From NCBI GenBank assembly GCA_907163375.1, contig CAJQUW010003174.1, positions 744,001 to 808,000 on the forward strand: a DNA stretch of 64,000 nucleotides. Reading direction: 5' to 3'. The stretch is from Prostheceraeus crozeri. Taxonomy: Eukaryota; Platyhelminthes; Polycladida; Euryleptidae. A program made the position numbers and the translations under genes. Under the pieces are notes generated by a model. The model ran no database searches and had not been told where the DNA came from. It was given only the letters and a program-made list of their open reading frames with translations. This document shows positions 9,508-58,256 of this stretch, piece by piece (positions within the stretch are counted from its first letter, which is position 1; every line of letters begins with the position of its first letter).

Positions 9508-9690
9508 GAATTGGAGATATATAAACGACTTTCATAGAAAAAATATAAGTGAAATATCGGCTGACAAACCTAACTTACTCAACAACAATAGGAAAGTGAT
9601 ATCACAATTCACGTGAAGTGGGAAAAGTTCGATGATGACTTAATGAAGAAGGCCAACGTTGATGTGGCAAAAGATATCTGACATCTTACA

Positions 9691-9768
9691 TCTGATCAGG
9701 GAATACTAAGATATCTGTATATCTACCGGGATATAACTATGTAGATATCTTAGTATTCCCTGATCAGA
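9691..9768. repeat. perfect 26-bp inverted repeat
   Basis: Arms at 9691-9716 and 9743-9768 are perfectly complementary over 26 bp, separated by a 26-nt spacer. The palindrome is compact and undecayed, suggesting a recent insertion of a hairpin-type element or a recent inversion-duplication. There is no ORF. Confidence 0.8.
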
Positions 9769-10690
9769 TATGCGTGATGAAAATCCGTGTTATTGGCAAA
9801 TTTTCCTGTTGGACTGTGTCAACTTCAGTAAGCTACATCACAGGTAAATGGATAGTTTGAATCATCCATTAATTCCTCATGCACTTTGATGATGTGATCC
9901 GAGGCACATAATTTTCTTCATTCAACTGTTTCTTTTTTCTTCGTCTTGAGAAATGAAGTAGAGAACGGATGGAATCGTAATTACGCCTTTGAGAATACGT
10001 GCATCCTCTTCAAATCTTAGAATAATGAAGAGGTCATTGAAAGAATTAAAGATAGTTTGAGTGTATTAGCTCACGATGAACTGATCGTCGTCAATGAGTT
10101 ATCGAAGTGTGCGAAGATAGATGGCACTCTACTTATGCTTTCTTTCATCTCACTATTGAAAAAAGTTCTCAACCTTTCATTAAGGTGCTCCATCAACACG
10201 ATATCTATAAGTCCTAAGTGCACCAGGGATACAATAAAGTTAAGAAACTTTGACTAGATTTGAGAAGAACGATTGAATATCATTCGCCTTGTCGAAAATG
10301 TCAAACATTTAAAACGATTGAAAAAGGAATCTCAAAGAGTTGTTTAAGAGGGAGAGAGGATTAAATGATTCAATTGAAATGTTGAAGTTTTTCAGATATA
10401 ATAGATGCAACGTTTTCAAAGTTTCTAATTTCGTGAATTCACTTAAGGCTACATGGCTGTCATATTTTCACGAGGCCTGCATGTAATTGTGCTTTATTGA
10501 ATTAAGAGATTTTCAAAATGAAAATAGAAGTAGAAATACAGAACTCTATTGAAACTAAAATCGCGTGAATTAATAATAAAAAATCAAAGCAATTACAATA
10601 CAACTTTTGCAATGAGAACGATGTCTTCAGACTGAACAATTTATCAGCCGCAGGCGTCGCGTTTCGTTTTTAATAGAACTCATCTGCATG
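9769..10690. other. gene-free AT-rich sequence
   Basis: I see no supported gene, RNA or element end. The 66-codon frame at 10057-10257 has no recognisable features and is expected by chance at this base composition. Confidence 0.4.
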
Positions 10691-12705: not shown

Positions 12706-12879
12706 CAGTGTACCCCCAGACAGTGCATAATTGCAATCATGTTCTTTGTTTCATCATGTGAACCCCAAGATTTACCTAGAAATTGGATTCATATCAAAGT
12801 CTTTTATTATTCTATAACAATAGGAGACTTTGATCTAAATCTGATTTCTATGCTAAATATTGTGGTTCCAAAGATGGAA

Positions 12880-39130: not shown

Positions 39131-39700
39131 GACCCTTTGGCACCCCTGCTGTGGTTGTTATTGAAGAAAATCACATGACTGACCGCTGCTTCAATTTTAA
39201 AGTCTAGCCGATTCTATATATTTTGAATTACGATCTCATACAAGCATTTATAGCATGCAAAAGTACAGCGCATAATTGCTACCAATGGCTACAAAGTGAA
39301 ATTTTTTGATTCCTTTACTTTGTGCAAATAGTTTACAAAAGGAGAGTGCCCTAATCTCGTAATTTGCGCTTTTAGTCTTGTATTATTTCCAGAGAGGGAG
39401 CTACTTTTGATTTGTGAATGCGTGCATTAACGTTAGCCTCAATGCTGTGTGACTTGCAACAGAATATTTCGCAAATACCCGGATTCATTGAATTGTTAAC
39501 ATGTGAGAATATTCTTACATCTCCACAGGCAAATGGAAAGATATTTTTTAATCCTATTCAGTCGGGTCACTTGCATGTCGGGTCACTATACTTTATTCAA
39601 TTTAATTACGGCCTCGGCTGTACGACTCCTTGAAGCTTTCAAAATCTAGACATTATTGTTATATTGTAATCTACATGAAAGAAATACTACTAAATGAAGT
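39131..39700. other. unassigned; contains repeat shared with 24.8 kb
   Basis: At 39607-39652 acggcctcggctgtacgact and gctttcaaaatctag repeat the block at 24829-24880. The rest shows nothing. Confidence 0.4.
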
Positions 39701-39702
39701 TA

Positions 39703-39813
39703 GACGAGCAACCTGGCAATAAATAAATTTATCAAATCTCAGCAGATGTAACCATCTGGAGACATGGTTCGTCCTCTTGGGCCTCATGAGTCGTGGGCAG
39801 GTTTAAGCCAGCG
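39703..39813 (-). repeat. 5'-truncated SINE copy A with broken hammerhead
   Basis: On the minus strand this reads as the 3' two-thirds of the SINE at 39962: a B-box remnant, cccacga, a hammerhead-like block, then the gataaatttatttattg tail. The core is CTCATGA instead of CTGATGA (39784-39790) and GAACC instead of GAAAC (39766-39770). Helix I pairing is also eroded, so it should be catalytically dead. It lies head-to-head with copy B. A short plus-strand copy of the tail (ttattcattgccaggctact) follows at 39815. Confidence 0.7.
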
Positions 39814-39961
39814 ATTTATTCATTGCCAGGCTACTTGTCTGACTCACATGTACTCACGTGAGGCCTGCGTGAAGCGCCTCAATCTCAGATACGGTATTAA
39901 GTGGCATCTCCACGTGCCTGCGCTACAGCAGTGCCTCCCTGGCTAATTCCCGCTCTGAACA

Positions 39962-40130
39962 GATGGTCCGGTGGCCTTGTGGTTAGAGGGTATGCTTGCA
40001 CATCCTCTAGTTCCAGCGTCGCTGGTTCAAACCTACCCACGACTGATGAGGCTCAGCAGGCCGAAACATGTCTCGTGGTGGTTATATCTGTTGATATCTG
40101 ATAAATGTATTCATTGTCAGGTTACTTGTC
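39962..40130 (+). repeat. tRNA-SINE copy B carrying a hammerhead ribozyme
   Basis: A tRNA-like head has an A box TGGCCTTGTGG at 39972-39982 and a B box GGTTCAAACC at 40024-40033, the internal RNA polymerase III promoter. Four bases after the B box a hammerhead fold begins, and after it a short AT-rich tail (gatatctgataaatgtattc) ends near 40130. The element is small, about 170 bp, with no coding capacity. It would be transcribed by polymerase III and moved by a partner LINE or PLE. The tail recurs in copy A and at 39815, confirming a repeat family. Confidence 0.75.
40037..40078 (+). ncRNA. type I hammerhead ribozyme
   Basis: All core positions are present. Helix I is CCACGA (40037-40042) with TCGTGG (40073-40078), six pairs. 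The core is CTGATGA (40043-40049). Helix II is GGCT/GGCC with loop CAGCA (40050-40062), including one G-U pair. GAA follows at 40063-40065, and helix III is a minimal AC/GT stem with a two-base loop (40066-40071). The cleavage base is C40072, so self-cleavage is predicted between 40072 and 40073. Very short helix III is typical of hammerheads in Penelope-like elements, which may need a dimer for full activity. Activity itself is inferred. Confidence 0.8.
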
Positions 40131-41564: not shown

Positions 41565-43077
41565 AATACTTTTAAAGTAGGTGCACTCTGCATTCTTGAT
41601 AAAACAGTCAACGCAAGAAGAATAAGAGTGGGATAAATCACAACTCGACCACATGGAAGAAAGGCTCCGTGCCCAATGTGCCTCAAAATATAAACAAGGT
41701 TTATTCATTTTTATCATGATTACATCACGAATGGGTGGAAATTCAAACTTTTCGAAATCGATGTTACCCTACTAGGCGCTGACTTGAAAGTAGGTAAACA
41801 GAGGAAAGATGTTCCTCCAGCCATATCAATACACATTGTTGACAAAATGTAGACTATCAACCGCTTGAGCTATGAAATTATCAGTTATGAAGCCACAAAC
41901 TTCCAATCACTAGTTACGACATTTAATTAGGCAAACCACACTGTTTCCTAAGCCTAGTGTCTCTACTGGTCAAGTGAATTAATTTGGTAATTCATCAATT
42001 ATGAGCTCAAGATCAAATTTGATGAGAATAAGAAAAAGATAAACGAACTTTTCGTGGTGTGCAACGATATACACACAATACCTCTAAATTCAAAGAAAAC
42101 TCTTATGGAATTATTACTCCTGTCCAAGATAGATGACCATAGACGTGAGATTCTCAAACTTCCATTGTAAACATACTTGTTTCATGTCTCACTGAAATAA
42201 TCACATAAATAAACAAGAAATCATTGTAAACGTAAAATTCAATTTAGTTTCTAAAAATACATTTCCAATTAAGTTACATATATCTTCCCCATCGTATTTA
42301 TCTATCTGCACTTGTCTGAATGGAGCATTCATGCTGTTTTCCACGCAGGAATGTTCATATTTGTCTTCACTAACAACGGCGCTATCTATTACAAATCGCA
42401 ACGTGAAATCCAGGATTGACATTTTGAATGACAATTATTGGACTATAAAGATAAATGAGGTCTTTTTCCTCTTTCTGTAACATTTCTGCCTGAGAAATAG
42501 GAGTTGACAAGGCCCAATATGATGTCTTATTTGCACATTTTTCACAGCTGTAATGAATGTTTGTCGGAACTTGGTTTAAACTTCAATAATCAGAGACAGT
42601 TGTTGGCAACCTAAAATAAAGTCATTTTGGAACGAACTGTAAAATCATCACGGCATCCATTACAGCCACTTAGCCTTCCTACCGATCTGAATGCAATCCT
42701 ACTGTGGTGCATGTTTATACAGCACCATCAAAGCAAATGCAAGTTTAAAAAGTAAAAATTAGCCTAACTAGTTATTCGATGCACTTGGAACTATATAGAT
42801 AGATCTACTTGTTCGTTTCAGCGTATGTTCTTGCCGATCTCCAATTTTTGAAATGAGCGTTGATTGACATATTTTTGGTGACAGAAGAAAGTTTTGAGAA
42901 ATCATTATTCTCTTTTCCAGTTGATGTAGCAACGTTTGAGTTTTGGGAATTGACAGCAAAGAAAATGAAAATCAAAAGCTGTGCTTCAAAGCAAATAAAG
43001 CTCAAAATCAGCGACTTTGCTATGATACAATACTGTGATAGCTGAAGTATGACATCGTAGCAGATTGAGCCCCAGCG
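41565..43077. other. gene-free sequence
   Basis: Nothing is supported; the short minus frames at 42201-42434 and 42768-43098 have no motif. Confidence 0.3.
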
Positions 43078-43114
43078 CTTCGGAGAACTTCGTTTCATTT
43101 TATCATTTTACTGT

Positions 43115-43165
43115 GTTTACCAAACTGCAATTTCACAGACAATGTCTTCTTCGTCAGTGGTTGGA
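43115..43165 (-). ncRNA. hammerhead-like motif in left PLE arm
   Basis: On the minus strand ACCA precedes CTGACGA, then a hairpin on agacattgtct, then GAAA, a short stem ATT/AGT and TGGT to close helix I. The core CUGANGA and GAAA are kept, but helix II has extra bases between stem and core (gaa and gt), so folding is uncertain. The right arm carries the same motif. Confidence 0.45.
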
Positions 43166-43374
43166 ATGTAAAAGTGCACATGTAATAGTCAATCAGTTAT
43201 CAAAAAGAAATTTTCTCCAACAGAAAGCTAAGAAGTCACAAACGTAAAAACAGTGGTACTGACGCAGTGTTACTATTTAACAATAAAGACCTGTCAGTAG
43301 CGGCAATGAGTACAGATTCTGCGATACGAGTATTATTCGTTCAATAACAGATAACGCTGAATTATGGTTCACGT

Positions 43375-43480
43375 GATATTTCAGTTGGTAGGGCGCGACC
43401 TTTGATATGCTCGTTAATTCTAGTTTGCAAATGCGGAGCTGTCTCACCAATGTAGCAATTTGGACAAAAATGTGTAAATG
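43375..43480 (-). pseudogene. GIY-YIG endonuclease fragment, left PLE arm
   Basis: The minus strand gives NCYIGETAPHLQTRINEHIK, the YIG half and helix of a GIY-YIG nuclease domain as found at the C-terminus of Penelope-like reverse transcriptases. The upstream VIY piece is in another frame because about 13 bases present in the right arm are missing. It is a dead fragment. Confidence 0.7.
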
Positions 43481-43562
43481 ACATATTCTGACAGCGTCTC
43501 TGAAAATCCTGAGGCCAGTGAAATATTTATGAATGTTTCCTTGTCATCTTGAATGAAAATTC

Positions 43563-44446
43563 TTGAAATTTTCTCTCTTTTTCAATGACTTATTACACGT
43601 GTTTAACAAAGTCAATGACAGTATTCAATTTACTGCAGAGATCCCAGATAATAATGCGCTTGATTTCTTGGATATCACCATTATCATCGAAGGGCACGAT
43701 ATTTATTATAACTGGTTTGAAAAACCCCAACATTCTGGCATCTCTCTGTCGCGTGACAGCTACGTACCTCAACATGTGAAAACTAATTACCTCAAAAATA
43801 ACAATGAATACGTAAAAAGTCGTTGTAGTGATAAACGTTTTATTGAAATATCTGAGAAAAAACTGAACAATAGGAAAAATGGGTTTCGCCAAAAAGATTG
43901 GAAATATACGTGCAAACGTAAAGCGAGCAAAAGAAAAACTGAAGAAGGAAACTGTAATCAACTGCATTTCAATTTCATTAATGACTGCACAGAAAAATTT
44001 ATAAATTAATTGATAAGTACAATTTCTTAGTCAAACTAGTTAGCAAACCAAATAAAACTGCATACAATAGTTTAAGAAATAAAAAGAAACATGCGAACTG
44101 TGACTTATGTAATTACTTGCCAGAAAACTTGAACTGTATGAGCCGTCATATCATATATAAGTTTACATGTAATTTACGTATGCAGTTTCATATTGGCATA
44201 AGCAACAGGCCATTTAAATTTCGTTTTATGGAGCATAGTCGTAGTTTGCACAATAGAAACTCCAGTAGTGCTCTGACTGATCACGTTCTTCACAAGCACC
44301 AAACACGTGACTTGACTATCAATGGTTTTGATTTGACTGTTCTTGAAAAGTGTTCTGACCCTCTAGATACTCGCTTGCTGGAAGCGAACTATATTAAACG
44401 TCTTTCTCCGCAAATCAATCGCAAATATGAGCTAATCGATTTTTGA
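43563..44446 (+). pseudogene. Penelope-like RT thumb plus GIY-YIG endonuclease, frameshifted
   Basis: The first frame (43563-44009) contains IQFTAEIPDNNALDFLDITI and WFEKPQHSGISLSRDSYVPQ, the segment following the catalytic palm in PLE reverse transcriptases. A second frame (43985-44446) continues with AYNSLRNKKKHANCDLCNYL, IIYKFTC, then FHIGISNRPFKFRFMEHSRS and LLEANYIKRLSPQIN, a full-length but divergent GIY-YIG nuclease. One frame change near 43985-44009 separates them. The fingers and palm are missing, so it is 5'-truncated at the junction with the left arm. It is a different PLE lineage from the arms. Confidence 0.8.
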
Positions 44447-44512
44447 ATCTTATTCACATCATCCGCAGTCCGACAGCAAATCTTCATTTACTCCATTCAC
44501 TTTTACTGCTGA

Positions 44513-44555
44513 TACCCTTGAGGACGGGTGAATACCTGAAACGTTGGACTGTACA
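44513..44555 (+). ncRNA. degenerate hammerhead-like motif after the central PLE
   Basis: The order is TTGAGGA (in place of CUGANGA), a stem GGGT/ACCT around GAAT, then GAAACGTT. The first core base is T rather than C and helix I is short. The gaaacgttgg phrase equals that at 30608. It is placed just downstream of the endonuclease stop, as expected for a PLE terminal repeat. Confidence 0.4.
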
Positions 44556-44639
44556 TATGTTTTTAACTTTATAACTACGCGAAGATAAAAAAGAAGAGAA
44601 AATTTCAAGAATTTTCATTCAAGATGACAAGGAAACATT

Positions 44640-45110
44640 CATAGATATTTCACTGGCCCCAGGATTTTCAGAGACGATGTCAGAAAATGTCATTTACAAA
44701 TTTTCTTGTGAACACTGTCCAAAGCATAGAAATAAACTGTTTATCTGAAGTTCGCTAGAATGGAAATTGACTCAAGGTCGCGGCACATCCGGGGGAACTA
44801 AGTTGGGGCATGAAGAACCAATTAAAACCTTCGATTTACTCATGTGACTGATTCTAACCCAATGATGCAGACGTTGGCAGGTGCATCTAAGTGAAAATGC
44901 GTGCGATTTATGTGCCGTTATTGTGCATTGCATGAAGCTTAATTTCCATTCTAAGAGGTTTTATTGTTGTCAATTTCTATGGTCCAAAGTGTTACATTGG
45001 CGAGCCCACTAGGCATTTGCAAACTAGAATTAACGAGCATATCAAAGGTCGCGCCCTGTCACCTTGGATTTTCACGTGAACCATAATTCAGCGTTCTCTG
45101 TTATTGAACG
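44640..45110 (+). pseudogene. GIY-YIG endonuclease fragment, right PLE arm, split by a MITE
   Basis: Plus-strand pieces read SENVIYKFSCEHCPK up to 44724 and then, after an insertion, CYIGEPTRHLQTRINEHIKG from 44990 on, followed by HVNHNSAFSVIERIILV. The cysteine pair and the VIY and YIG motifs are those of a PLE GIY-YIG domain. The insertion and a lost base after the helix break it. Confidence 0.7.
44725..44981. mobile_element. 257-bp MITE with 8-bp target duplication
   Basis: The ends CATAGAAAT and ATTTCTATG are inverted copies, and GTCCAAAG stands on both sides (44717-44724 and 44982-44989), a perfect 8-bp target duplication as made by hAT-type transposases. The left PLE arm shows the site without insertion. 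A related copy lies at 60955-61085, sharing cccaacttagttcccccgg in inverse. Confidence 0.85.
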
Positions 45111-45283
45111 AATAATACTCGTATCACAGAATCTGTACTCATTGCCGCTACTGACAGGTCTTTATTGTTAAATAGTAACATTACGTCAGTACCATTGTTT
45201 TTACGTTTGTGACTTCTTAGCTTTCTGTTGGAGAAAATTTCTTTTTGATAACTGATTGACTATTACATGTGCACTTTTACATT

Positions 45284-45335
45284 CCAACCACTGACGAAGA
45301 AGACATTGTCTGTGAAATTGCAGTTTGATAAACAA
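45284..45335 (+). ncRNA. hammerhead-like motif in right PLE arm
   Basis: It is the inverse counterpart of the motif at 43115-43165, with CTGACGA at 45291-45297 and GAAA at 45314. Here helix I has TGAT instead of TGGT, weakening the pairing. It lies about 170 bp downstream of the endonuclease stop. Confidence 0.4.
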
Positions 45336-45377
45336 CAGTAAAATGATAGAATGAAACGAAGTTCTCCGAAGTATGAT

Positions 45378-46571
45378 AATAATATGATGGCAGAATAACT
45401 CTCTCAACAAGCTTAAAACGATCGCAAATTCCATTTGATTTTTTCGAAAAATCGAAGAAAAATCGAAAGGAAAGCTATGTTTTGTAATTGTTTGCACTTG
45501 CAGTATACTGACGTGCTTGGCGAATTTGTGAAAATTCGAAAACCCATTTCCTGTCTAGTGCGAGATGAGTTTCGAAGTCGCAAAATGAATAAGAAAATCT
45601 AAGTATATAATATGTCAGAGCAACCTGAAATGACAAGGCTGAAGTGCAGCAAACATGTAAGTTTCGTAAAGAGGCAGAATAATTTTTCACATTTTTGAAT
45701 TATCAGTAGTATGAGCCAGGTAAGCGTAATTCAGACAATTATCTTTACTCTTACATAATTGCATAACATTGTTATGAGATGATATCACCGATGCATTTTA
45801 ATTCAAATAATATAGCCAAAATCACCATATGATGGCCTATCTAGAAAAGAAAATTATTCAAAGTTTTGCGGATGTACTTTGAATCAAAGGAATTTATTTG
45901 AACATTTCCCGGGCCAATTTCAAAAGTGTTTAATATGTAGCTAAAGCTAAAGCAAAATTTCGAGAAGCGCCTCCTCCCTCCAACCGGACGCACACAATGA
46001 AGAGAAAATCAATATCTTCATTATCACCTTTTAGTGTGGCTGAATCAATTTCTGCAATTTTAAATTGACCGTTGCTCAAATATTGTCGGAAAATAATTCA
46101 AAAATCAGCCTCCGTTCGTATTTTCAAACATTTCATGCGGCTAGTACTGTTTTGTGAAGAATATTACTGCTATCCGATGCTTATTTCCTCCAACAAACAG
46201 ATGAATTTCTACTACATTTCGCTTTGAAGCAACAAAAAAAGACTATGAAAGCAACTTCAGATTTAGAGAATCTGCGTGCTTCAAGAAATCACAAGAATCA
46301 CAAGCAATTCAATGATATTTTAATGAAATCACTGACTCCGCAACTCTTGAAAATGTAAACATGTAATTGTGATAAAGCAATTGCAGTGTGGTCAATCTAC
46401 TGCAGGCGTTCTTGTATGGCTTCACTTTATCACGTAAGACTGCTTATGAGAGAGAGCTCCTCTCCTTAAGCAGACTCAACGTACGGCGCACGAAACCATA
46501 TTACCAAATCACATGCATGCAATGATTTAGGATTGGTAATCAACATTGCTAGTAGTGGATGGACTAGATCT
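45378..46571. other. gene-free sequence
   Basis: No supported feature. Confidence 0.3.
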
Positions 46572-46893: not shown

Positions 46894-46991
46894 AGATCAA
46901 ATTACCATGCAAAAGATGTGCGGTTGGTAGGATTCGAACCTACGACCAAGGTTAACTAGACCTGCGATCTACCAACTGAGCTACTAGCCAC
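46894..46991 (-). repeat. tRNA-like SINE head S2, copy 1
   Basis: The minus strand reads GTAGCTCAGTTGGTAG, a near-perfect A box and D arm, an anticodon arm with loop CTAGTTA (AGT, threonine-type), and GTAGGTTCGAATCCTAC, a perfect T arm with B box. The acceptor stem has several mismatches and the D stem one, so it is a pseudo-tRNA. The 3' side continues into acatcttttgcatggtaatt, repeated in copy 2, which shows a SINE body. Confidence 0.6.
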
Positions 46992-54374: not shown

Positions 54375-55787
54375 TCAAGGTCGGTTGATCATCAATGCCG
54401 AAACGGAACGGGGGCCGATGTGGTCGTTGAGAGCGTCTTGGAAGCTGCATCGAATCACCAGAATCAATTGCGGAATTGCCCGAGGCTTGTTCTTTTTCCT
54501 TGGTATTTTGCGAGGCGACTGAAACGCTGAAGATGATGTATCATATGCATCAAGATCATGTGATAATACCCCAGCATCCGTAGGAACCAAACTGATCCTA
54601 TGCAAGGCTGTATTAACAAAAGTATTATCAGGAAAAATAACCCGAACAGTAGTTTGATTAATCATACGCTCTACCTTACCTAGTCGGCCTTTTATGGAAA
54701 ACTTGGGTGATGACGGGAATCTTAGAAGAACTTCCTGACCTGCATTTAGGCTACGAAATTTGTTATTTTGAGAAAAGGAATTGCGAGGCATGTTAGAGAT
54801 AGCTTGCTCCCTTAATTTCTGTGATCGATCGTTTTCTTTTTTAGAACTGAGAAACCAAAGAAAAAGTCAACAGGACGACAGTTAATGCTGGTGTGCACTG
54901 AGGTGCGGTAGTTAAGCAAAGCCGAAGGTATTGCTTTAGGCCAGTGATAGCGACTTAGCCCTACTTGATTGAGATAGGCTTTATATTACTTTGTATGGTA
55001 CCATTGAAATGTTCGGAGCAACCATTGCTTTTAGGAGAATAACCATTCGTTCTAATTTTATGGATACAGTATTTTTCCAAGAAACCTAGAAAAGTTTCGC
55101 TAAGGAACTGTGTTCCCCGGTCTGTAAGAATAGAATCCGGGAAACAAGTGATGCAGAAGAGCTCTTTACATGTCAAAATCAAAGTATCTGCTGACATGTT
55201 TTTACTGGAAAAGCAAAAGCGTATCTCGAAAAAAGGTCAATTACTGTTAGTATATATTTATATCCCTGAGATTCTGGTGAAGGCCCTATATAGTCTAACG
55301 CCAGGATCTCCATTGGAGCTTTAGTAACGAGGGGCTCATCGGGTGGCGATAAAAACGCCGGCTTTGTGAAGGAGCAAATTCGACAATTCTTTACGAATTC
55401 CTCTACTGACTTCCTATAACCAGGCCAGAAGCAAGTTTCACCAAGACTAGCTAATGTAGACGTGACTCCACGGTGGAGACCATGACATAATGTAAGAATT
55501 TTCAAGCGCATATGCTTCGGTACATATATCTGTTCCTTATCATTGTACAGAACACCTTGTTTTACCTTAAAAGATTTTCTCTGAGACCAGAGTGCATATG
55601 AAACGTCAGCCGGTTTTCGTCGTAATTGGTTATTGATAATGGCAGAAATAATACTTTGACATTCAGAATCAAATTCCTGAGAACGTTCTACACTGGAAAG
55701 CTCAACAGCTGGAGGTACAAAATCAATCGAGTTAATGCGTGAGAAGCAATCTGCTACTACATTCTGTTTCCCTGTGCAGTATAGCAC
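54375..55787 (-). pseudogene. gypsy integrase region
   Basis: Starting from 55787 the frame has the end of RNase H (GKQNVVADCFSR), then the zinc-binding HGLH...CRIC set, then the catalytic core with ALDYIGP (first aspartate) and DLFSRYAFAFPV. After a frame change at about 55190 it continues with LTDRGTQFLSETF (second aspartate) and PKSNGCSEHFNGTI (glutamate). A stop near 54960 and another frame change lead to the C-terminal part LNAGQEVLLRFPSSPKFSIK (54791 onward). All three catalytic acidic residues are visible, but the frame is broken. Confidence 0.85.
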
Positions 55788-56870
55788 ATCAAAAGTCTCC
55801 AGCGAAGGATTTTAGGGCTAATTTTAATGGAGTTGAATAAAAATTGGATAGGTTTATGATCGGTTATTACTGTAAACTTACGGTTTAGAAGGATCATTCG
55901 TGAGCGAGTTATGCCCCAATAGATAGCAAGAGCTTCTTTCTCAACTATATCATTATTTTTCTCAGAAGCTGAGAGAACTCTAGAGAAGAATGACACTGGT
56001 TCTCCGGTCGATGTTTGGAGTATAACTGCAATGGCTTTATCAGAAGCATCTGTACGCAAAACGAGGTCATCGTTAGGACCGGAAATGACAAGTACAGAGT
56101 TAGATATTTCTTTTTTTAATAGTCTCGAAAGATTCAAGTGCTGCTGGTGACCAAAAGTCAATAACTGGATTTTGCTGACGATTGTTCTGTAAACAGTTTT
56201 TCATATCAAGTAAAGGCTTGCAAACATCTGAAAACTGTTTGACATACTTAGAAAAGTAGGTGACAAAACCTAAGAAACGCTCTCGAGATTTCAGCTCGCC
56301 AGGAAGTGGAAAATTTTCTAGTGTTTCGGTTCGAGACTTAACAGGGTTTGACAGTACCATTTTCGACATAGAATCCAAGAAACTCAATGCTGGTACAAAC
56401 TAAAGGAACATTTTTTCCTGTTTAGACTAAGTCTGTTTCCTAACTAAGTTCAGAACTTCCCTCAGGGTTTCATCGTGAGCTTCAGCTGTCGGACCATAAA
56501 TGAGAAGGTCATCTAAATAAAGTAAACAATTTGGAATGTCACCAAAAATGGTGTTCATTATTCTAGAGCATGCGGCAACGGCATTTTTTAGGCCGAATGG
56601 TAGACGAGTGTATTGCCAAAGCTGACCATCAGCATGAAATGCGGTTTTTGGGCGGTCTGATTCAATTAAAAGTATCTGGTGGTAGACTTGGGAAAAGTCT
56701 ATCTTACTGAAGACCTTAGCATCGTTCAATTTCAAAATAAGTTGTTCTATGTTCGGAATGGGGTAGGCATCAAAAGTAGTTTGAGTTAACTGGTTTATAG
56801 TTAATGGTCAGTCGTTTCCCACCATCTGACTTAGCTACAACAACTGGACATGACCTCCATGGACTGCGGG
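55757..56870 (-). pseudogene. gypsy reverse transcriptase and RNase H region
   Basis: Frames give SRSPWRSCPVVVAK (about 56860), YPIPNIEQL, FSKIDFSQVYHQI, LPFGLKNAVAACSRIM and the catalytic YLDD (56519-56508), then a connection with FLGFVTYFSKYVKQF (56387-56100), then RNase H with LRTDASDKAIAV, EKEALAIYWGI and TDHKPIQFL. Breaks lie near 56765, 56410 and in an A-run near 56110. Confidence 0.85.
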
Positions 56871-57079
56871 AAACTTCTCTCCCCTGCTGTCAACAGCTCA
56901 TCTAGCTTCTCAATAAATAATAAATTGACTGTCTGATCTATTGACTGGACGAACAGCTGAGCGTATTGGCTTTTCGTTTGGTGTGGCAACAATTTGGTGT
57001 ACTTCTACTCCAGTCAGACAACTATCGTCCAAGTTTTTGTCAAATAAATCTGAAAATTCAGTTATGAAATCAGGAAACA

Positions 57080-57370
57080 GTGAGAAGATACTATGTCCAC
57101 AAATACTCAGAAAATTTCATTTTATCCAAAAGATCTGCGCCCAAGATTGTGTCAACAGATATCTCGCCTACAAAGAGATGGACACTAATCGTCGTATCGA
57201 GAAATGTCAAAGCAGTTTGAAAGGATTTGCTCAACTCAAGGTATCGGCCATCAGCAACAGCTGCTCTAAAGGGTTTATCATCCAAAAGACATGTCCAACC
57301 GAACTTATATGCTGTTGTACTTATTATGGAAACAGTAGCTCCAATGTCAATAAGAAACTTGATTTTTTTC
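57080..57370 (-). pseudogene. gypsy aspartic protease
   Basis: The active-site segment reads FLIDIGATVSII at about 57365-57330, then a flap region, then SVDTILGADLLDKMKF with the ILG motif. The usual DTG/DSG triplet is DIG, so the active site is altered. An A-run just upstream (about 57360) shifts the frame from gag, and a stop lies at about 57091. Confidence 0.7.
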
Positions 57371-57439
57371 CTAGAACTTCACATTCAAGAAAACGAAGCC
57401 TATTTTCATTTTTATCGCAGTGTACAGACAAGACTTCCT

Positions 57440-58203
57440 TGGAGTTCTTAGATTTACAAAACTTAGCTGTGTGGCCTATACGACCACAAGCTGAGCAAGT
57501 GGCACGTTTGAAACATTCGTCAACGTTGTGACCATATTTTTTACAGTGTCGGCAAACAATTAGTTTCAAACATTTGTCAACGTTGTGACCAGATTTTTTA
57601 CAATGTTCGCAAAATAAGCGGCGTCTTGTCTGTTCAGATGCGTTTATTGGCGATACCGTATCAACTTGAAAGGTAGTATGATCAGTTTCTTTCAAGGATG
57701 AAACATTTTTCTCAGTTTGTTCTATAGCATTGGCTTTTTTAATAACCTCGGCAAGACCTACATCTCCCTGTCGCAGAAGAGCCTCTTATTTTCTTGTTTT
57801 TAATACCTATTATCAACTGATCGCGAATAAGCTGATTAGGTATGGTATCAATAGCAGTATCACCAAAACTGCAAGTAGCAACTAGATTCTTAAGTTTAGA
57901 AACGTATTCATTTATTGTTTCGTTGGATAATTGAAAACAAGTTAAAAATTTGTGACTATAGAAATTGACTTGAAAGGTTGAACATAATGCAACCTCGTCT
58001 TTCATTTCATTATAAGTTGCCGGCTGGGGTTCAAAACTTTTCACAAAAGATCTAGCTTGTAAACCAGCAATAGATAACGATTTACATTTATGAGCGTCAT
58101 CAGGTTTAGTAGTACTAAGGTAGTAAAAATCTTCAAAAGCTTCTAGCCAGTTTTTGAGAAAGTTAATATCCAGATGCTTTGGTGGCTTTAATCCTGATAA
58201 CAT
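57440..58203 (-). pseudogene. gypsy gag with three CCHC zinc knuckles
   Basis: It starts at an ATG at 58203 (MLSGLKPPKHLDINFLKNWL), a capsid-like region with LSNETINEYVSKLKNLV. A frame change at about 57785 (two bases lost or one gained) interrupts it. Downstream, three knuckles of the form CX2CX4HX4C lie at 57611-57570, 57554-57513 and 57497-57456. The first two are almost the same (CxHCKKxGHNVDxC), exactly 57 nt apart, indicating a tandem duplication. The product would package the element RNA in virus-like particles. Confidence 0.8.
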
Positions 58204-58256
58204 GGTTCCAACGTAAATGGATGCAGGGGCTTACCAGATCCGATGACTGAAATCCG

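Follow-up and report, generated by a model that had tools for sequence, protein, structure and literature searches.

A hammerhead ribozyme motif at positions 40037-40078 of the window (the whole 64-kb stretch of DNA that was analysed) raises the question of what kind of mobile element carries it, and whether self-cutting is part of that element's life cycle. The original prediction described an intact type I hammerhead built into a tRNA-derived SINE, whose polymerase III transcript would sever its own tail. A hammerhead within a mobile repeat bearing Pol III-type boxes is indeed present, but a simple tail-cutting SINE is not the best reading, because the element family forms 303-bp tandem units and head-to-head insertions. 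These two features fit the cycle of a retrozyme, where multimers are cleaved down to single units. The insert at 39700-40130 is probably an old copy of a non-autonomous retroelement whose 303-bp unit follows a cycle like that of animal retrozymes or of Smalpha in Schistosoma, with circles copied in a Penelope-like manner.

The hammerhead and the insert that carries it

The hammerhead motif is real. The core CTGATGA/GAA, the six-pair helix I (CCACGA/TCGTGG, also recovered in the computed fold), the four-pair helix II (GGCT/GGCC, one pair being G-U) and the cleavage base C at 40072 (C17), directly before the cut, are all found as first described. A strict type I descriptor run on both strands of the window has its sole match at 40043 (+), and the same descriptor has no match in 20 Markov windows (one strand). 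The best Rfam match is HH9 (RF02275), an intronic ribozyme of amniotes, which covers 40027-40092 at 27.5 bits (E 0.012). Its outer helix I and UACC internal loop align with the window hammerhead, but the score does not reach the curated cut-off of 52 bits; a younger copy of the element, in L015, scores 29.7 bits. The conserved core and the three helices, with helix I open, are those of a type I hammerhead, helix III existing only as a one-pair stem or in a dimer. A ribozyme scan of IMG/VR returned no matches.

Helix III is the part of the motif that departs from the earlier drawing. The AC/GT helix proposed there would require a loop of two bases and is impossible as drawn; within one molecule, ACATGT can form one pair closed by a CAUG loop, which by energy computation is 5.7 kcal/mol less favourable than having no helix III at all. 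The minimum-energy fold of the 42-mer retains helices I and II and pairs the core AUG with CAU. All six pairs of the palindrome are possible only between two copies. Newt hammerheads with a comparable helix III are reported to cut far better as dimers (PMC6155905, PMC7229834), and better cutting as dimers has likewise been suggested for minimal Penelope hammerheads (PMC7761336). Since the helix III first proposed cannot form in a monomer, the lone window copy is, on this structural model, probably a poor self-cutter. The insert contains one intact hammerhead, in the forward arm, and one broken hammerhead, in the inverted arm; with a single intact forward hammerhead and an unstable monomeric helix III, efficient self-cutting of the window copy is doubtful.

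Table 1. Features of the insert and of the neighbouring Penelope-like element (window positions; unit positions refer to the 303-bp repeat, and sites A and B are defined in the text)
Feature	Position	Strand	Details
Inverted arm	39700-39814	-	Unit 187-301, 87% identity to C815 unit; A end on the outside
Broken hammerhead, inverted arm	39755-39796 (approximate)	-	CTCATGA for CTGATGA; helix I decayed
Forward arm	39814-40130	+	Unit 273-299, then 15-298; 88-89% identity; A end on the outside, at 40130
A-box-like TGGCCTTGTGG	39972-39982	+	One mismatch to the consensus used
B-box-like GGTTCAAACCT	40024-40034	+	One mismatch to the consensus used
Outer helix I strand AACC	40030-40033	+	Overlaps B box; partner 40080-40083 (Rfam alignment, fold)
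Type I hammerhead	40037-40078	+	Helix I 40037-40042/40073-40078; core 40043-40049, 40063-40065; helix II 40050-40053/40059-40062; cut 40072/40073
Palindromic helix III ACATGT	40066-40071	+	One pair as monomer, six pairs as dimer (fold; dimer by analogy, PMC7229834, PMC6155905)
Outer helix I strand GGTT	40080-40083	+	Partner 40030-40033 (fold)
GATAAAT	40101-40107	+	Where other copies have their B end
Tail between sites B and A	40108-40130	+	
Decayed Penelope-like element, RT end and GIY-YIG region	43557-44446	+	GIY-YIG E 0.002, under cut-off

The head of the element carries an A-like and a B-like box whose starts lie 52 bases apart, each scored against a box consensus. A pair in this order, with one mismatch each, occurs by chance in 8 of 20000 Markov units, so that the boxes are in excess of chance; the hammerhead begins two bases past the 11-base B box, not four. 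The description "tRNA-derived" fares less well. The Rfam tRNA model has no match in the 121 bases searched at E values up to 10, ARAGORN calls no tRNA at the element, and a tRNA cloverleaf in the head was accordingly rejected. With no recognisable tRNA fold in its head, the element is not filed here as tRNA-derived, and "tRNA-like boxes" is the wording that the sequence safely allows. The 303-bp unit is devoid of TTTT on either strand, a property found in 31.5% of shuffles (one strand). Elsewhere in the window, ARAGORN places a tRNA-Thr (AGT) at 46918-46991 that reaches only 32 bits with Rfam and may be a pseudogene or the head of a SINE.

The insert extends further to the left than the repeat first described. 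The segment 39703-39814, overlooked at that stage, is inverted and 81% complementary to part of the element, so that the insert consists of two arms placed head-to-head (Table 1).

The 303-bp family and its insertion ends

A ribozyme pattern of 35 bases with four free positions has 1853 matches in the 2.05 Gb genome (14,165 contigs), in which the reversed control pattern has none. By COX1 the host is a flatworm: the best named relatives are the polyclads Stylochus stellae and Pseudostylochus intermedius, both at 69%, and three proteins without a species name score higher, the top one at 91%. So many intact matches speak against a wholesale loss of core bases from the family. Across 32 distinct copies no two-sided helix change was found; because these copies are young and were mostly retrieved by the intact-ribozyme pattern, the absence of compensatory changes says little either way.

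The repeat unit is 303 bp long and is found both in dispersed insertions and in arrays that reach about 44 units. A type I hammerhead in tandem repeats of this length agrees with the animal non-LTR retrozymes, whose repeats measure about 150-450 bp. Among the first 100 of the 1853 pattern places, 33 of 37 same-strand neighbours are exactly 303 bp apart, and opposite-strand neighbours are arranged minus-plus in 17 cases and plus-minus in 2. The longest array, in C815, has 43 full forward units and one partial unit behind about 1.1 inverted units. Units at the 303-bp spacing are highly identical to each other, and those of C815 carry scattered changes of their own. In C46 (L012, L013) a segment bearing the element recurs at a spacing of 5833 bp and was seen three times. 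In C171 (L042, L044) another insertion apparently interrupts a copy of the element, and unit 148-157 (TGGTTAGAGG) is present on either side of the interruption.

Insertion ends were mapped for 32 insertions, which drew on part of the first 100 pattern places and had been retrieved irrespective of their ends, through overall similarity or the intact-ribozyme pattern. In 24 of them an inverted arm is present and the 3' ends of the units face outward, the head-to-head shape of a Penelope-type insertion. The other eight (L014, an old fragment in L017, L022, L023, L033, L058, L059 and L061) are single-orientation, truncated or old. One head-to-head insert, L041, has a truncated outer end, which leaves 23 with both ends resolved; four ends (L015 left, L051, L064 and C815 right) were scored by eye, C171 was scored across its inner interruption (L042 and L044, which have T181 in common), and C46 was counted once though repeated.

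The outer ends fall at two sites, A at unit 298-303 and B at about unit 271-280. One A end is combined with one B end in 22 of the 23 resolved inserts (P 2.9e-6 if the ends were independent), and the tail between the two sites is thus present at one end only, as is the optional tail of Penelope-type insertions. The insert in the window is the only A/A case. Arm length is variable, the inverted arm of L015 measuring about 10 bases. Flanking words of 9-13 bases in common, outside AT repeats and with up to four element bases per side included, are found at 9 of 26 insertions, compared with words of at least 9 bases in 4.9% of 452 control cross-pairs (650 pairs, less 198 with pure AT words). The 50-base flanks of the 26 insertions are AT-rich, with means of 0.74 and 0.77 against 0.62 in the window. 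Inner ends of the head-to-head arms fall within unit 185-211 in 13 of 38 cases, where 3.4 are expected for this range picked post hoc. The ribozyme cut site was considered as an end of the cDNA and rejected, as only one of the 38 inner ends (C26, unit 241) lies there and there is no excess.

Variants common to both arms and rival explanations

In several inserts the two arms carry the same uncommon changes. In C186, G26>T is present in all 12 covering units of both arms and in one other of 24 covering inserts. In the main insert of C274, C89>T is present in 17 of 18 units across both arms, the exception being the outermost left unit, and among 25 covering inserts it is seen elsewhere only in a small insert beside the main one. 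In C648, three changes are present in four of four units. When rare variants are defined as those present in at most two of 22 inserts, 5 of 53 cases are common to both arms, compared with 3 of 1466 in cross-element pairs. These observations support the copying of each insert from a single template for a few young inserts, not as a proven general rule; the claim is limited in this way because the remaining 48 of 53 rare variants are confined to one arm, many of them in diverged copies such as that of the window, and because the arms of C99 differ at four places.

The shape of the insertions suggests that a Penelope-type reverse transcriptase spreads the element by copying a small circular RNA, and several other histories can be weighed against the same record. 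The element could be a common Pol III SINE that depends on a LINE for its mobility and carries the hammerhead as a passenger. The A and B boxes in excess of chance, the flanking words in common and the dispersal of the copies would all agree with this, but the two fixed end sites, the head-to-head inserts with two outward 3' ends and the tandem 303-bp units make it improbable, as fixed double end sites, head-to-head inserts and tandem units are not usual in LINE-driven SINEs. Those tandem arrays, with their high identity between units, are what a satellite DNA with a hammerhead, spread through unequal crossing-over or DNA circles, would be expected to form. It would not be expected, however, to give dispersed inserts that have target duplications and end at two fixed sites, nor the uncommon variant present in both inverted arms of C186; a satellite origin is quite improbable. 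Inverted ends and target duplications also recall a fold-back, MITE-like DNA transposon with terminal inverted repeats, yet the shorter arm may measure as little as about 10 bases, as in L015, or as much as several units, as in C186 and C274, and the ends lie at the unequal sites A and B, so that this origin is extremely improbable.

A further alternative retains Penelope as the mover and differs in how the second arm arises, namely at the palindrome TTGATAAATTTATCAA (unit 272-287), where the cDNA would prime itself or switch strands, instead of by priming on the other target strand. In the sequence, site B adjoins the centre of this palindrome, the variants common to both arms are as would be expected, and self-priming has already been proposed for the inverted repeats of Penelope (PMC3846280). 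Both outer ends, however, are unit 3' ends adjoining target DNA, the arms are unequal in length and in their inner ends, and purified Penelope is reported to extend both target strands (PMC11167929). We regard self-priming as rather unlikely.

Copying of a circular RNA by a Penelope-type enzyme, with priming on both target strands, can be set out as a cycle. The motif, the boxes, the arrays, the two end sites and their A/B pairing, the duplications and, in some inserts, the cross-arm variants are read from the genome; from these we infer transcription, cutting, circles and an enzyme. The A and B boxes within the unit would initiate Pol III transcription, and, a TTTT stop being absent from the unit, transcripts would run on through tandem units. 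The multimer would be cleaved by its hammerheads, which would act best in pairs, and a host ligase would close the resulting 303-nt pieces into circles. A Penelope-like enzyme with RT and GIY-YIG domains would then open AT-rich DNA, and reverse transcription would start from RNA site A on one target strand and from site B on the other, the enzyme being able to circle its RNA template several times. Finally, the two cDNAs would be joined head-to-head so that both 3' ends face outward, and roughly 8-13 bp of target would be duplicated. Every new full copy, whatever its start on the circle, would have its own promoter, provided that the Pol III-type boxes work. We tentatively extend this proposal to a Penelope dimer that opens both target strands, its subunits starting at A and B of one RNA circle and both rolling round it to write divergent arrays that meet head-to-head. 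Such an event is a serious possibility; if it occurs, the near-strict pairing of A with B ends would be its genomic record.

Penelope-like elements and other known systems

Several properties of Penelope elements in other animals bear on this proposal. In Adineta, an inverted pLTR is described as completing the insert, a 31-bp tail is optional at one inverted pLTR, any duplications measure 8-10 bp, copies are most often arranged head-to-head, and an unrelated gene has been carried by pLTRs (PMC3846280). The Anolis Penelope protein is reported to cut and extend both target strands, to prefer AT-rich DNA and to start reverse transcription at two RNA sites downstream of the hammerhead cut; insertion in vitro did not need the hammerhead (PMC11167929), and its role in the 303-bp element could consequently be confined to making unit RNA.

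Penelope copies are abundant in the genome, with 25,621 first-look candidates, and among the 150 of these that were scored and listed, all 17 opposite-strand neighbours within 10 kb are minus-plus. The Penelope-like sequence at 43557-44446 is an example of the kind of enzyme envisaged and at most a candidate partner. It is part of a decayed element at 43034-45380 with partly inverted flanking pieces, at which two copies of a hammerhead-like CTGACGA...GAAA motif are found, at 43157 (-) and 45291 (+). No partner sharing hammerhead and tail with the 303-bp unit was found in its subfamily, the unit having no significant match at 20 loci of the subfamily, including that of the window (best E 0.12). 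The window also contains a broken Gypsy-like retrotransposon at 54375-58230 (-), with RNase H and integrase zinc-binding matches, and two long inverted repeats. One, at 9690-9769, is weakly microRNA-like, under curated cut-offs, and is probably a small fold-back element; the other, at 12752-12877, has microRNA-model matches under the cut-offs.

An element of this kind is already known from published descriptions, both as Smalpha (PMC2770079) and as tandem retrozymes (PMC7229834), and Smalpha of Schistosoma is the precedent for a hammerhead in a tRNA-related SINE (PMC2770079). As far as the literature searched shows, what is new is the insertion record, which ties a hammerhead element to a Penelope-type, two-site, two-strand mechanism: that literature, in which few subscription papers are covered, contains no account of this element and none of Penelope-type ends for any retrozyme. 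For such animal elements, copying of circular RNA by a Penelope-type enzyme had been no more than a proposal. In an element only 303 bp long that has 1853 near-identical ribozyme copies, start sites, arms and target duplications stay readable, and the poorly known Penelope mechanism may therefore be testable on it.

By description, Smalpha and Sjalpha of Schistosoma resemble the present element in being SINE-like, in carrying a type I hammerhead and in their flatworm hosts (PMC2770079, PMC8490949). The head of Smalpha is described as tRNA-related (tRNA-Gln-TTG in S. mansoni; PMC2770079, PMC8490949), whereas the tRNA model has no match here; a 335-bp example is given for this group (PMC8490949), compared with the 303-bp unit, and helix III is minimal in the present flatworm element. 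Animal non-LTR retrozymes likewise consist of short tandem units (150-450 bp) that contain a type I hammerhead. They number thousands in some genomes, target duplications, where these occur, are a further similarity, and those of amphibians have a weak helix III with a palindromic tetraloop (PMC7229834, PMC7761336). The Pol III-type boxes within the unit and the two-site head-to-head ends distinguish the present element, neither being described in the accessible text of these reports (PMC7229834, PMC7761336). Penelope-like elements have been named there as a strong candidate for moving retrozymes, short of demonstration (PMC7229834).

Penelope-like elements are also reported to have an inverted arm, a tail that may be present at one end, duplications of 8-10 bp and AT-rich targets (PMC3846280, PMC11167929), and in Anolis Penelope the hammerhead similarly lies upstream of two start sites for reverse transcription (PMC11167929). 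The 303-bp unit is far shorter than an RT gene, in contrast to Penelope-like elements themselves, and its tail of about 24-31 bp compares with tails of 31 and 30-40 described for them (PMC3846280, PMC11167929).
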